Shown here: positions 24,617 to 29,489 of the stretch, in pieces
Layout: each line of letters opens with the position of its first letter
Numbering within the stretch: position 1 is the first letter of the stretch
From: Streptomyces sp. JJ66
Lineage (GTDB): Bacteria; Actinomycetota; Actinomycetes; Streptomycetales; Streptomycetaceae
Direction of reading: 5' to 3'
DNA length: 64,000 nucleotides
Assembly: GCF_019303495.1 (NCBI RefSeq)
Contig: NZ_JAEVFI010000013.1
Coordinates: 3,705-67,704, forward strand
The notes under the pieces: generated by a model
What the model was told of the DNA's origin: nothing
What the model saw: only the letters and a program-made list of their open reading frames with translations
Database searches by the model: none
Translations under genes and position numbers: made by a program

Positions 24617-25207
24617 TCACAGGGACAGGCTCCACTGGGCCGGGGTGGTGGAGAAGTCGAACAGTTCGACCTCCAGGTCGAGGACCTTCGCGTCGGCGGG
24701 CACGTCATAGGCGAACCCGGCGGTGGCCTTCTTGCCCGGGAGTACGGTGCCGGTGAAGCCGGTGCCCACCTTGTCGCCGTAGATCTCCTCCACCGTGGTG
24801 CCCTCTTCCCCGGCCCGGGCGCTGACGGAGACCAGGTCGGCGTCCACGTTCTCCTCGCCGGTGTTCTCCAGGGTGATGGTCACCTGGTACGCCTCGTTCC
24901 CCTCGGTGTGGCCGAAGTCCGTTTCGCCGACCTGGTAGGGGCTCGCCGTGGAGACGGTGACCTTCAGCCCGCTGTCGTAGACGGCGGTGTCGCCCCCGGC
25001 GTAGGGGCCTTCCGCGGAGTCCCCCGCGTCCCCGGCGTCCTCGGCCCCGGCGTCCTTCGCGTCGCCCTCCTGGCCGGCCTCCTGGCTGTTGCCGCTCTCC
25101 TTCGTGGGCTCGTCCGCGTCCCCGCACGCGGTCAGCCCGCCGACCGCTAGGACGGCGGTGGCCACGGCGGCGACGAGGGTGCGGGCGCGGGTGGTGTTCA
25201 CGGACAT
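24617..25207 (-). CDS. Secreted lipoprotein with DUF4352-type domain
   Basis: A 196-residue lipoprotein starting at ATG 25207, 6 nt after AAGGGG. The signal peptide ends in the lipobox VGGLTAC. An acidic Glu/Asp/Ala-rich linker (~35-75) follows. A beta-sandwich of DUF4352 type occupies ~80-196 (YQVTITLENTGEENVDADLVS). Such domains are extracytoplasmic and of unknown function, sometimes chaperone- or adhesin-like. It is divergent from the DNA methylase across a repeat-rich spacer. Confidence 0.85.
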   Translation of the reverse strand: MSVNTTRARTLVAAVATAVLAVGGLTACGDADEPTKESGNSQEAGQEGDAKDAGAEDAGDAGDSAEGPYAGGDTAVYDSGLKVTVSTASPYQVGETDFGHTEGNEAYQVTITLENTGEENVDADLVSVSARAGEEGTTVEEIYGDKVGTGFTGTVLPGKKATAGFAYDVPADAKVLDLEVELFDFSTTPAQWSLSL

Positions 25208-25317
25208 GACTGACCCCTTGTGGATGCTGCGAGAACGAGTGCGGGAAGAACGCGAGGACGCCGTGAAGGCGCCCGGTGCGGATCTTGCGAACCGCTGGGT
25301 CAATAACAACAGAGACT

Positions 25318-25369
25318 GTGAATCGAGTCAACACTGTTCACTGGATTCACGAGGTTCACGCAGTGAACC
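25318..25369. promoter_or_regulatory. Array of GTGAA/TTCAC repeats upstream of the methylase gene
   Basis: Within 52 bp there are GTGAATC (25318-25324) pairing with GATTCAC (25344-25350), then GTTCAC, and a perfect GGTTCAC-GCA-GTGAACC palindrome (25353-25369). The region is much more AT-rich than its surroundings (CAATAACAACAGAG just upstream). This looks like a multi-site operator/promoter serving the methylase, the lipoprotein, or both. Confidence 0.6.
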
Positions 25370-25436
25370 GGTGCGGCGAGCAATCCGCGGGTATGCTCAG
25401 CCGCACCGCCACGACGACTCGCAGGAAGGCGCCGAC

Positions 25437-27389
25437 GTGTCGCAGAGCACGCCCGAAGAACCGGAGGTGACCGCGGCCGGGATCGCCCGGCTGGCGGGCG
25501 TCGGCCGGGCCGCCGTCAGCAACTGGCGCCGCCGGTACCCGCACTTCCCGCAGCCCGTCGGCGGCACCGAGGCCAGTCCCACCTTCGCGCTCGCCGACAT
25601 CGAGGAGTGGCTGCGCGCCCACGGCAAACTCGCCGAGGTGCCGCTGCGCGAGCGGGTGTGGCAGCAGATCGAGACCGACCCCGAAGGCCCGGCCGCCGCC
25701 CTGGCCCGCGCCGGGGCAACCCTGCTCGCCAGCGGTGACGAAGACGACGAGCCCCCCACCCCGCTGCACCGCCTGGCCGGGGAACTCGGCGGCGCGGGAG
25801 CGGCCTTCGGCTTCCTCCTGACCCGCTACTTCGACGCCAGCCCCCGCGCCCACACCCGCACCCCCGCCCCCGCCGCCGACCTCATGGCCGCCCTGGCCGC
25901 CGCCACCGCCCGCCCCGGCGCCGTCCTTGACCCGGCCTGCGGCTCCGGCGAACTGCTCGCCGCCGCACAGCGCACAGCGGCACCACCCGCGCCCGCCCAC
26001 CAGGGCACGAGGGCTGCCCGGAGCCGGGCGGCGGACGCCGGAGGCGGCCTGCGGCTGTACGGCCAGGAGACCGACCCGGACCTCGCCCGGCTCACCGCCC
26101 TGCGGCTGACCCTGTGCGCCGCCCCGCGCCCCGCCGCCGTCCAGGTGCGCACCGAGGACGCCCTGCGCACCGCGCCCGCCGAACAGCCCGCCGTGGACGC
26201 CGTGCTGTGCCACCCGCCGTTCAACGAACGCCACTGGGGACACGACGAACTGGCCTACGACGCCCGCTGGGAGTACGGCCTGCCCGCCCGCACCGAATCC
26301 GAACTGGCCTGGGTGCAGCATGCCCTGGCCCGGCTGCGCCCCGGCGGCGTCGCGGTGCTGCTCATGCCCCCGGCCGCCGCCTCCCGCCGCACCGGCCGCC
26401 GCATCCGCGCCGCCCTGCTGCGGCGCGGCGCCCTGCGCGCCGTCGTCGCCCTGCCCGCCGGGGCCGCGCCGCCGCACAGCCTGCCGCTGCACCTGTGGGT
26501 ACTGCGCAAGCCGGACGGCGTCACGCCCGCCGAGCCACGCCTGTTGCTGCTGGACACCAGCACCCGGTACCAGCCCGACGGGCGCGAGCCGTTGCCCTGG
26601 GACGCGCTGGCCGACACCGTGCTCACCGCCTGGCGCGCGTTCGCCGACGGCGCCAAGGTGCCCGAGGAGCCAGGGGTGTGCGGCACCCGGCCGGTCATCG
26701 ACCTGCTGGACGACGACGTTGACCTCGCCCCCGCCCGCCACCTGCCCCCTCTCCCCGGCGCGGGCGACGCCGCCGCACTGGCCGGGACCCGCGCCGAGCT
26801 GGCCCGCACCCTGCGCCGCAGCCTCGACCTCACCCCCGACCCCACCCCGGCCCCCGACCCCACCCCGGCCCCCGGCGAGACCACCACCGGGCGCTGGACC
26901 CTCACCACCGTCGGCGAACTCCTGCGCGCCGGAGCGCTCCAGGTGCGCGCGGGCGGCGCGGAGGGCGCCCCGGCCGTGACGCGCGCGGGCGACATCGTCA
27001 TCCCGGTCCAGGGCCGGGGCGCCGCCTACGTCGTGGACGCCGACACCGCCGGCCAGACGCTGGCCAAGCCGCTGTACCTGCTGCGCCCGGAGCCGTACGC
27101 GCTGGACCCGTGGTTCGTCGCCGGTTTCCTGCGCTCGACCGCCAACACCCGCCAGGCCAGCAGCTACGCCTCCAGCGCCTCCCGGCTGGATGTGCGCCGC
27201 CTGCACCTGCCCCGGCTCGACCTGGACGGCCAGCGCCGCTACGGCGCCCACTTCCGCCGCCTGGCCGCGTTCGAAGCCGCGCTGCGCCTGGCCGGGGAGC
27301 TGGGCGCGCGGCTGGTGCAGGGCGTGTACGACGGTCTCACCGACGGCAGCCTGGAACCGGGCGACTCCCCGGACCAGGCCCCGCGCTGA
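25437..27389 (+). CDS. Solo HsdM-like N6-adenine DNA methylase with N-terminal HTH and C-terminal HsdS-like region
   Basis: A 650-residue protein starting at GTG 25437 after GGAAGG. Residues ~10-62 are a helix-turn-helix (VTAAGIARLAGVGRAAVSNWRRR, then ALADIEEWLRAHGK). The SAM-binding motif VLDPACGSGELL is at ~163-174. The catalytic tetrapeptide is HPPF (His259-Phe262) rather than the usual NPPF/Y, so activity is uncertain. Residues ~530-645 look like half an HsdS target-recognition domain. No restriction subunit adjoins. It could be a regulatory DNA-binding protein derived from a type I methylase. Confidence 0.8.
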   Translation: MSQSTPEEPEVTAAGIARLAGVGRAAVSNWRRRYPHFPQPVGGTEASPTFALADIEEWLRAHGKLAEVPLRERVWQQIETDPEGPAAALARAGATLLASGDEDDEPPTPLHRLAGELGGAGAAFGFLLTRYFDASPRAHTRTPAPAADLMAALAAATARPGAVLDPACGSGELLAAAQRTAAPPAPAHQGTRAARSRAADAGGGLRLYGQETDPDLARLTALRLTLCAAPRPAAVQVRTEDALRTAPAEQPAVDAVLCHPPFNERHWGHDELAYDARWEYGLPARTESELAWVQHALARLRPGGVAVLLMPPAAASRRTGRRIRAALLRRGALRAVVALPAGAAPPHSLPLHLWVLRKPDGVTPAEPRLLLLDTSTRYQPDGREPLPWDALADTVLTAWRAFADGAKVPEEPGVCGTRPVIDLLDDDVDLAPARHLPPLPGAGDAAALAGTRAELARTLRRSLDLTPDPTPAPDPTPAPGETTTGRWTLTTVGELLRAGALQVRAGGAEGAPAVTRAGDIVIPVQGRGAAYVVDADTAGQTLAKPLYLLRPEPYALDPWFVAGFLRSTANTRQASSYASSASRLDVRRLHLPRLDLDGQRRYGAHFRRLAAFEAALRLAGELGARLVQGVYDGLTDGSLEPGDSPDQAPR

Positions 27390-27450: not shown

Positions 27451-28206
27451 ATGTACGGGGCGGGCGCACCTCCGACGCCATCATCTGTGACGCCGCCACC
27501 GGCGCACCGCGCCGGTCCCGGTGCCGGGGCGATGACGGCCCGGCTGCTGTTCGCGTCGTTCCCGGTGTGGTCGCTGGGCCTGCTCGCGTGGGTGCCCTCG
27601 CTGCGGTTCGCCATCCTGCGCCGCCGTCCGCTGGACTGGGCCGTGTTCGCGGCCTTCGCCGCCGGTACTGTCGCGGAGATCCTGCTCCTGGCGTTCACGC
27701 CCGAGGAGCCGGACCACCCGGCCAACGCCGCGGCTGGCGGGTACGTGCTGATGTTCCTCATCGGCGCCGTCACCCACGCCGTCCTGGCCGACCGGTTCCC
27801 GCGCACTGCGCCCACCCCGTACGGCGCGCACGCGGTGGGCTACGGCTACCCGCAGCCCGCGCCCGGCCCCGCCCCAACCGGCAACGGCTACCCTCAGCCA
27901 ACACCGCCGCCCCAGCACGCCGTCCACCAGCACGTGCCGCCCTACGCCGCACCGCCGTACCCCGCGCCGCCACCCCAGCCGTCCGCGCGGTACCCGCACT
28001 CCGTGCACCAGCAGCCCACCGAGTACGCGCCGCCCGGGCTGCGGCCGCAGCCGGTACCGCAGCCGCCGTCCGCGCCGCAGTCGCCGTCCGCGCCGCAACC
28101 GGCCGCGCCGACCGCGCCGGCCGAGGAGCCCGCCCGCATGCGCCAGGTCGCCTCCGAGCTGGACGAGCTGGACGCGTTGCTGCGCCGGCGGGACGGCGGC
28201 CAGTGA
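27451..28206 (+). CDS. Membrane protein with Pro-rich cytoplasmic tail, coupled to a Ser/Thr kinase
   Basis: A 251-residue protein with ATG 27451 after GGGAG/GGAAG. Three hydrophobic helices span residues ~28-112 (LLFASFPVWSLGLLAWVPSL, WAVFAAFAAGTVAEILLLAF, GGYVLMFLIGAVTHAVLA). A long Pro/Tyr/Gln-rich tail and a charged C-terminal helix (ASELDELDALLRRRDG) follow. Its stop overlaps the kinase start (GTGA). This type of protein occurs next to STPKs in Streptomyces and may be a partner or substrate; that is inference. Confidence 0.7.
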   Translation: MYGAGAPPTPSSVTPPPAHRAGPGAGAMTARLLFASFPVWSLGLLAWVPSLRFAILRRRPLDWAVFAAFAAGTVAEILLLAFTPEEPDHPANAAAGGYVLMFLIGAVTHAVLADRFPRTAPTPYGAHAVGYGYPQPAPGPAPTGNGYPQPTPPPQHAVHQHVPPYAAPPYPAPPPQPSARYPHSVHQQPTEYAPPGLRPQPVPQPPSAPQSPSAPQPAAPTAPAEEPARMRQVASELDELDALLRRRDGGQ

Positions 28207-29489
28207 TCGGCCGCCTCATCGCGGGCCGCTACGAACTGACCGAACCGCTGGGCAAGGGCGCGATGGGTCAGGTGTGGGGCGGCCACGACCAGGGTCTGGG
28301 CGGACGTCCGGTGGCGGTGAAGCTCATGCACTCCGGGCATATGGCCTCCCTGTCGGGCAGCGCCTCCCCACCGGAGCTGCGCGAACGGTTCGAGCGCGAG
28401 TGCCGGGTGACGGCGCGGCTGGACCACCCGAACCTGGTCACCGTCTTCGACGCGGGCCGCGAGGGCGACGAGCTGTTCCTCGTCATGCAGCGCCTGGACG
28501 GCAGCGACCTGGCCGACCACCTCGCCGAACACGACCCCTACCCCTGCTCCTGGGCGGTCGCCGTAGCCGCGCAGCTGTGCTCCGCGCTGGTCGCGGTGCA
28601 CACCGTCGGCGTCGTCCACCGCGATCTCAAGCCCGGCAACGTCATCGTGCGCCCCGAGGGCCGCGTCGTCATCCTCGACCTGGGCATCGCCGCCGTCGGC
28701 TCCCCGGGCGACGCCACGCGGCTCACCCGCACCGGCGCGCTCATCGGCACACCGGTCTACATGGCGCCCGAGCAGGCGATGGGCACCGCGCCCGTCGGCC
28801 CGCCCGCCGACCTGTACGCACTCGGCGGCATGCTGTACGAACTCCTCACCGGGCAGGCACCGTTCGAAGCCCCCGAAGCCTCCGGGCTGCTGTACAAGAA
28901 GCTGCACGAGGAGCCCCGTGCGGTGCGCGAGCTGCGCCCGGAAGTGCCCGACCGGCTCGCCCACCTGGTGCACCGCCTGCTGCACAAGGACCCCGCCGCC
29001 CGGCCCGCCGACGCGCACCAGGTCTACGACGAGCTGGCCCCGCTGCTGCCCCGCACGGGCGGCCCGGGCGGACCGGCGCTGCCGCTGGACCCCACCCGGC
29101 CGTTCCTGGACCCCATGGCCCCCTGGCCGCCCCGGCCCGTGCCGCCCCCGCCCGGCTTCGGTCCGCCCCCGCCCACCGGGCTGGCGGCCACGCTGGAGGA
29201 AGTGCGGCGCCTGCTGGCGTCCGGCCAGTACGCCCAGGTGGCCGACGTGCTGGGGCGCGCGCTTCCGGCCGCCGTCGCCGAGCACGGCGAGGGCTCGCCG
29301 ATCGTCCGCAAGCTGCGCAAGCAGTACGCGGCGACGCTGATGGAAGCCGGGCAGTACGCCACCGCGCTGCCGGAGGTGACGCGGCTGGTGCGCGAGTACG
29401 CCGCCGAACTGGGCCCGCACGACCCGGTGGTCACCCAGCTGTTGCGGGACGAGGCGTTCTGCCGCCACCGCCTCACCGGCCACCGCTGA
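28203..29489 (+). CDS. Serine/threonine protein kinase
   Basis: A 428-residue Hanks-type kinase starting at GTG 28203. The glycine loop LGKGAMGQVW, Lys40 (VAVKLM), HRDLKPGN (Asp141, Asn146), DLG in place of DFG (Asp159) and APEQ are present, so it should be active. Residues ~290-330 are Pro-rich. Residues ~335-425 are helical, tetratricopeptide-like repeats (LLASGQYAQVADVLGRAL, LMEAGQYATALPEVTRLV). There is no transmembrane helix, so the kinase is cytosolic, perhaps tethered by its coupled membrane partner. Confidence 0.92.
   Translation: MIGRLIAGRYELTEPLGKGAMGQVWGGHDQGLGGRPVAVKLMHSGHMASLSGSASPPELRERFERECRVTARLDHPNLVTVFDAGREGDELFLVMQRLDGSDLADHLAEHDPYPCSWAVAVAAQLCSALVAVHTVGVVHRDLKPGNVIVRPEGRVVILDLGIAAVGSPGDATRLTRTGALIGTPVYMAPEQAMGTAPVGPPADLYALGGMLYELLTGQAPFEAPEASGLLYKKLHEEPRAVRELRPEVPDRLAHLVHRLLHKDPAARPADAHQVYDELAPLLPRTGGPGGPALPLDPTRPFLDPMAPWPPRPVPPPPGFGPPPPTGLAATLEEVRRLLASGQYAQVADVLGRALPAAVAEHGEGSPIVRKLRKQYAATLMEAGQYATALPEVTRLVREYAAELGPHDPVVTQLLRDEAFCRHRLTGHR

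Follow-up and report, generated by a model that had tools for sequence, protein, structure and literature searches.

A helix-turn-helix and Type I methylase fusion of Streptomyces with a conserved upstream operator: candidate autoregulator of a Ser/Thr kinase operon

Organization of the Locus

The window, a 64-kb stretch of Streptomyces DNA, holds a gene in which a helix-turn-helix (HTH), an HsdM-like core and a target-recognition domain (TRD) are fused in one chain. The gene lies on the forward strand at 25437..27389, starts with GTG at 25437 and encodes a protein of 650 amino acids (P0001). The N-terminal winged HTH is of the MerR/BldC/AlpA type (aa 9-64; 25461..25628, +) by structure model, and a separate 68-residue model (pLDDT 89) places the HTH and its wing within the first 64 residues. 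The central N6_Mtase core (aa 123-382; 25803..26582, +; Pfam PF02384, 2.5e-29) carries the SAM motif I DPACGSG (aa 165-171; 25929..25949, +), the residues of which are kept across the clade described below, and motif IV in the form C-HPPFN (aa 258-263; 26208..26225, +), where the catalytic Asn has given way to H259 (codon 26211-26213). Towards the C-terminus, profile and model indicate a single HsdS-like TRD with a C-terminal helix at about aa 490-640 (26904..27356, +).

With a profile of 37 homologues, Type I M subunits rank first (PacII M1, 7vru, 1.5e-50), and an HsdS-type TRD is matched at aa 510-634 (5ybb_D, 3e-9; 3okg, 4e-9). The predicted structure of the fusion protein is confident (mean pLDDT 86.9, pTM 0.77), and PacII M1 (7vru/7vs4) is its best match both in sequence and in fold. 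HsdM_N (PF12161) gives no match at E ≤ 1 in the fusion protein, and the HTH stands there instead. The N-terminal HTH, the HPPF methyltransferase core and the half HsdS region claimed in the first-pass annotation were all found by Pfam, profile and model.

A lipoprotein gene with a DUF4352 domain (24617..25210, −; Pfam, 3e-10) diverges from the fusion gene. Downstream, a membrane protein with a proline-rich tail (27451..28206, +), recognised by reading the sequence and with no Pfam family above the cut-off, overlaps the start of a Ser/Thr kinase (28203..29489, +; Pkinase, 1.4e-43), in which HRDLKP is present.

The 52-bp array of GTTCAC-type repeats that had been claimed upstream is real, and it comprises six units in a single 9-bp register at 25318-25371, with no strand assigned: GTGAATCGA, GTCAACACT, GTTCACTGG, ATTCACGAG, GTTCACGCA and GTGAACCGG. 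This operator array contains the direct repeat GTGAATCGAGTCAA and also GTTCACGCAGTGAAC. Five GTGAAY/RTTCAC half-sites fall inside its 54 bp, out of 39 across the 64-kb window, and none of the other 34 has a second one within 54 bp. The perfect GTTCACNNNGTGAAC at 25354-25368 is the single occurrence in the 4.84-Mb genome. The operator is overlapped by a sigma-70-like, promoter-like pair of the divergent lipoprotein gene (25303..25331, −), read from the sequence as TTGACT (25331-25326), a 17-bp spacer and TGTTAT (25308-25303). Read in the same manner, TATGCT at 25392..25397 (+) is a candidate −10 of the fusion gene, with GGTATGCT in many orthologues. A consensus promoter scan returned no site, including for the lipoprotein −35/−10 pair.

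Loss of the Catalytic Asparagine

Homologues were gathered from genome contigs. Of the 121 homologous loci that were read, duplicates were dropped, as were short rows and those in which no HTH was recognised; the 109 left were aligned together with the gene of the window. In a tree built without the motif IV columns, one clade of 76 rows (SH-aLRT 100) consists entirely of sequences with H259, and its sister is a group of five Catenulispora-type QPP rows (94). Asn at position 259 occurs in 21 rows, all outside the H259 clade. The survey of this position, which had been suggested earlier, indicates that HPPF is no quirk of one copy; a chance origin of H259 was considered and ruled out, as 76/76 clade rows carry it. 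The tree also places independent losses of the Asn elsewhere, to His three times (the clade, L183 and L070) and to Gln, Ser and Asp in other rows, a number that is approximate, as long branches (L059, L177 and L070 among them) are flagged in this quickly built tree. The change in L183 is a separate one inside the NPPF paralogue group, and this locus has no same-strand kinase downstream.

Mutants of the NPPF motif in EcoKI lose activity. In characterised Type I subunits, according to the accessible portion of PMC9613975, the catalytic motif begins with this Asn. The (N/D/S)PP(F/Y/W) form that marks a catalytic HsdM is missing from the clade, in which 76/76 rows have HPPF. The residues around the SAM pocket are kept, with T142, P143, D165, G169 and an acid at 211 in 76/76 rows and G171 in 73/76. 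The H259 clade, having its pocket residues and lacking the usual catalytic residue, thus looks capable of binding SAM, and base methylation has most likely been lost through the Asn to His change, as judged from these residues. The QPP rows are without T142, P143 and the acid at 211, and this group looks like a protein further decayed than the H259 clade.

The same motif could belong to an active orphan methylase with an altered active site, in which HPPF methylates, the HTH only autoregulates as in M.SsoII, and epigenetic marks do the regulating. The rigid conservation of HPPFN (H259 in 76/76 rows, F262 and N263 in 75/76 each) and of the SAM pocket is a counterpoint to a pseudo-enzyme, as it is also compatible with an enzyme whose active site is unusual; NPPF relatives with an intact Asn exist, and one TRD is present. 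We nevertheless regard this as unlikely, given the place of Asn at the opening of the catalytic motif and its independent losses in other lineages. Position 266, a constant Asp in the Asn-bearing groups shown, has drifted in the clade (N60/H10/D3/G2/A1), and the QPP sisters have lost pocket residues as well with the same operon retained.

An Operator That Follows the HTH Gene

The 9-bp tandem site GTGAACnnnGTCAA precedes 94/109 of the homologous genes and 2/2883 control windows, under a strict pattern that was composed after the upstream sequences had been read. By group, the strict operator GTGAA[CTA]NNNGTCAA, located in the 350 bp that precede the HTH codon, was found in 73/76 HPPF-type loci, 12/13 NPPF-type paralogues, 5/5 QPP and 4/4 SPL loci, and in 0/11 of the remaining group. 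The 11 loci of this remaining group, mostly Nocardia with Asn, share the 9-bp arrangement, their first half-site being GAAARC. A looser form finds 105/109 loci against 9/2883 control windows, and since it was fitted after the missed loci (the Nocardia variant) had been seen, its 105/109 is descriptive.

Among orthologues, the operator core TGTGAACCGAGTCAACACGGTTCAC is almost fixed, and the exact 15-mer GTGAACCGAGTCAAC stands in 59/77 HPP loci, with L070 and L183 counted in. The arrays of the clade also hold inverted half-sites beside the head-to-tail repeats. The half-site covaries with the type of HTH. With a GVG type, GTGAAC/T or GTAAAC is present in 91/95 loci and none in 4; with GVT..WRRR, GAAARC or TAAAAC in 10/10; and with GVT..WRKR, GTGAAT in 4/4. 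Across 121 Streptomyces-type genomes, the exact 17-mer of the site occurs at 49 places, all of them at the fusion gene by coordinates, and a reversed control pattern gave zero matches in the same genomes. With at most one mismatch, the 17-mer is present in 63/121 genomes.

BldC (6ama) is the best match of the HTH model (Foldseek rank 1, E 0.032), and VIA-align 2, which re-scored only the rows that Foldseek had returned, gives Z 6.5 and rmsd 2.6 over 54 aligned residues for 6ama and Z 6.0 for 6amk. Scores to BldC are middling in both programs and other MerR/excisionase HTHs score almost as high, so that the model supports, with middling confidence, a MerR-like winged HTH, BldC-like or otherwise. 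BldC subunits bind 9-bp direct repeats in crystal structures, as described in the available part of PMC5859096. The likeness thus concerns both the winged-HTH fold and DNA sites built in 9-bp units. However, the same source describes BldC as a free 68-residue protein with AATTxxxx(C) repeats, whereas here the HTH is fused to a methyltransferase and a TRD, and the repeats are of the GTGAAC type with inverted units included.

Taken together, the conserved site, its covariation with the HTH type, the exclusivity of the 17-mer and the 9-bp repeats of BldC point to the HTH of the gene itself as the most likely binder. The neighbourhoods of the NPPF paralogues are different ones, so the site follows the HTH gene. 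Sequence comparison therefore lends strong support to the proposal of the array as target of the HTH, with a site that travels with its HTH gene among paralogues in unrelated neighbourhoods and has exact copies nowhere else in the 121 genomes. It is quite improbable, in our estimate, that the array is bound by another regulator or is merely a strong conserved promoter, with the HTH serving in target recognition by the methylase. The overlap with the −35/−10 pair of the divergent gene would suit such a role, but the same site stands before paralogues with different neighbours and orientations, its exact copies are unlike the regulon of a global regulator, and its half-site changes with the HTH.

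Kinase Linkage and Relation to Restriction-Modification

The gene had been described as a solo methylase, and this is wrong because a kinase operon follows it. In every clade locus that has 2 kb or more of downstream sequence (69/69), a same-strand Ser/Thr kinase follows, usually after the membrane protein, and it is conserved together with the latter. A kinase is found at 5/5 QPP loci too, and divergent lipoproteins are also present at all 5. In most NPPF paralogues, the kinase is divergent or convergent. The place of the locus is stable, with mfd no more than 6 kb away in 16/19 clade loci that have about 6 kb upstream.

The claim that no restriction partner exists holds locally, as neither HsdR nor a separate HsdS accompanies the gene at its locus, but not for the genome, where HSDR_N is matched on contigs C1 and C22 only, nor for relatives that sit in Type I restriction-modification (R-M) operons. 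The own-genome paralogue on C22 (L213:243-10922) is an NPPY fusion methyltransferase beside HsdM, HsdS and HsdR-like genes, forming a complete Type I R-M locus that also carries a Ser/Thr kinase with TPR. The C-terminal region of the window's kinase can be aligned to this TPR-carrying kinase (42% over 416 aa). At four Nocardia loci (L071-L074, about 6.0-13.9 kb), an SPLS/SPPS fusion gene heads hsdM-hsdS-hsdR, and this fusion is likely a dead modification-type protein acting as R-M controller, as far as its motif indicates. HsdM/S/R genes of the C22 type were not found near the HPP-clade genes and were seen only near L057, L070 and the Nocardia SPL group. The ancestor was likely a controller-like fusion in a Type I R-M locus that also carried a kinase; in Streptomyces, the restriction part would have been lost and the remainder would have settled by mfd.

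These neighbours also suggest a kinase-methylase defence component (MADS, Pgl/BREX type 2), in which a methyltransferase-like protein and a kinase jointly block phage. The same four functional types occur in MADS (mad1 HTH, mad2 methyltransferase, mad5 specificity, mad6 kinase), PADLOC reports matches to the mad1, mad2 and mad5 models and to mad6-type kinase models, and both the C22 paralogue and the Nocardia relatives keep company with HsdM, HsdS and HsdR. We hold a defence role to be rather unlikely for the Streptomyces trio, which stays at a fixed place, unlike mobile defence islands. Its HTH, methyltransferase and TRD are in one chain, and its NCBIfam scores fall under the equivalog cut-offs (MAD2, 14.3 vs. 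720 bits; MAD6, 148 vs. 460 bits). No nuclease or PglZ-like gene was recognised among the adjoining genes examined.

Proposed Function

Drawing on comparison of the architecture, the fixed H259, the conserved operator, its covariation with the HTH and the kinase linkage, we regard the fusion protein as probably a Type I modification subunit that has become an autoregulatory transcription factor, controlling the divergent lipoprotein and its own kinase operon. Direct operator binding, repression rather than activation, and catalytic inactivity are what we infer from this. The BldC-like HTH (aa 9-64) would occupy half-sites of the form GTGAAC / GTSAAC, spaced at 9 bp in the region of the divergent promoters, its protomers probably acting cooperatively on the operator. 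Once bound, the fusion protein would set expression both of its own operon, which encodes the fusion protein, the membrane protein and the Ser/Thr kinase, and of the lipoprotein gene. Repression is the simpler guess, because the operator overlaps the promoter-like −35/−10 pair. The core and the TRD would serve for ligand sensing, dimerising or DNA reading, and candidate switches of binding are SAM/SAH in the pocket, a methylated TRD target, or phosphorylation by the kinase.

The loss of the catalytic residue in a protein with a near-invariant HTH and a conserved array looks like an enzyme turned gene switch. Mean pairwise identity in the clade is 0.87 for the HTH, the top conserved region of the protein, vs. 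0.71 for the methyltransferase core; the core being only somewhat less conserved is a counterpoint to a purely regulatory reading. The NPPF paralogues share the HTH and the operator yet keep the Asn, so loss of catalysis is unnecessary for autoregulation. That the protein turned into a transcription factor, as was suggested, is the most convincing reading and is helped by the repeated Asn losses, with HTH and operator staying; the earlier interpretation as a whole is partly supported. SAM as ligand is possible for the HPPF clade and compatible with its kept pocket, but the QPP sisters, which lost pocket residues and keep HTH, operator and kinase, cannot need it, so SAM is not required by every member. 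More tentatively, the family may form a new class of transcription factor in about half of Streptomyces species, a dead methylase whose SAM pocket would be the sensor and whose HTH and TRD would read promoter DNA, coupling the SAM/SAH level or the DNA methylation state to a Ser/Thr-kinase operon, with sister lineages that are without the pocket or still govern complete Type I R-M operons.

Comparison with Known Systems and Significance

A literature search found no paper and no experiment on the locus, including under SCO3102-SCO3104, which we take to be possible orthologues. The accessible parts of PMC10148868, PMC12839542 and PMC13118837 make no mention of it, and the available part of an S. 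roseosporus study lists three orphan methyltransferases of 718, 838 and 303 aa (PMC9240718), one of which may be the orthologue. As far as the available text of PMC3978073 describes them, M.SsoII-type methylases are alike in having an N-terminal HTH that acts at their own promoter, where the present protein has a conserved site and predicted binding. Per the same text, M.SsoII belongs to a Type II R-M system, is active as an m5C enzyme and has an HTH resembling that of the 434 repressor; the fusion protein, in contrast, combines a TRD with an HsdM-type core that has lost the catalytic Asn, and its gene lies in a kinase operon. Type I HsdM/HsdS such as PacII share the N6_Mtase core and TRD (PMC9613975, accessible portion), whereas the present protein is one fused chain that does not match HsdM_N, carries HPPF for NPPF and lacks an HsdR at its locus. 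RptR and the C-proteins, like the regulator proposed here, are local autorepressors of R-M operons with repeated 6-bp sites. In the portion of PMC12255303 available, RptR represses Type I R-M operons as a small protein with a single domain, unlike a regulator that is itself derived from a modification subunit and has a possible ligand pocket. Autoregulation being known from M.SsoII (PMC3978073) and RptR (PMC12255303), at least from the same partial texts, the novelty lies in the combination and in the repeated loss of catalysis.

The fusion proteins match methylase models, so annotation likely names them methylases. Should the HPPF clade prove unable to methylate, the name of a widespread gene is wrong, and there would be a clear case of an R-M enzyme that on several occasions became a regulator bound at promoters. 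The fixed operator and the kinase offer a simple, complete system for asking what such a regulator senses.

Intragenic Arrays and Sites Elsewhere

GTGAAC/GTTCAC also accumulates inside the genes themselves, with 177 observed in 75 clade genes vs. 69.3 expected when synonymous codons were shuffled, and 145/177 fall in the linker between the HTH and motif I. Of same-orientation intragenic spacings up to 90 bp, 80/86 are multiples of 9 and 86/86 of 3 (L070 and L183 included), and the arrays occur in either orientation. L131, L134, L137, L154 and others, for example, have GTGAAC at 18- or 27-bp spacing in this linker, again in either orientation. A 27-bp triplet pattern was found in 7/29 genomes, 5 of which carry the fusion gene; by coordinates it lies inside that gene in G020, G103, G092 and G115, and the G007 and G010 matches differ in kind from these. 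Such arrays may be extra binding sites, or repeats may have expanded in a linker that tolerates them.

The 17-mer with one mismatch has 28 places in the 121 genomes, 12 at the fusion gene and 16 outside, the latter being candidate targets at most. Several of these 16 resemble coding sequence (CoA-transferase-like, ABC-transporter-like), and a few are gene junctions rich in GTGAAC (L201, L205, L207, L194). G136 and G143, with no protein match at 1e-80, hold fragments or a broken copy of the fusion gene. G126 (L194) has a GTGAAC cluster and two one-mismatch places, and this genome gave no match to the fusion gene at 1e-80. The junction clusters lie at L205:4345, L207:4257, L201:4182 and L194:5200-5800, with iolB-like and aldehyde-dehydrogenase-like genes downstream and one cluster between CoA-transferase-like and thiolase-like genes, names that were assigned by reading the sequence.
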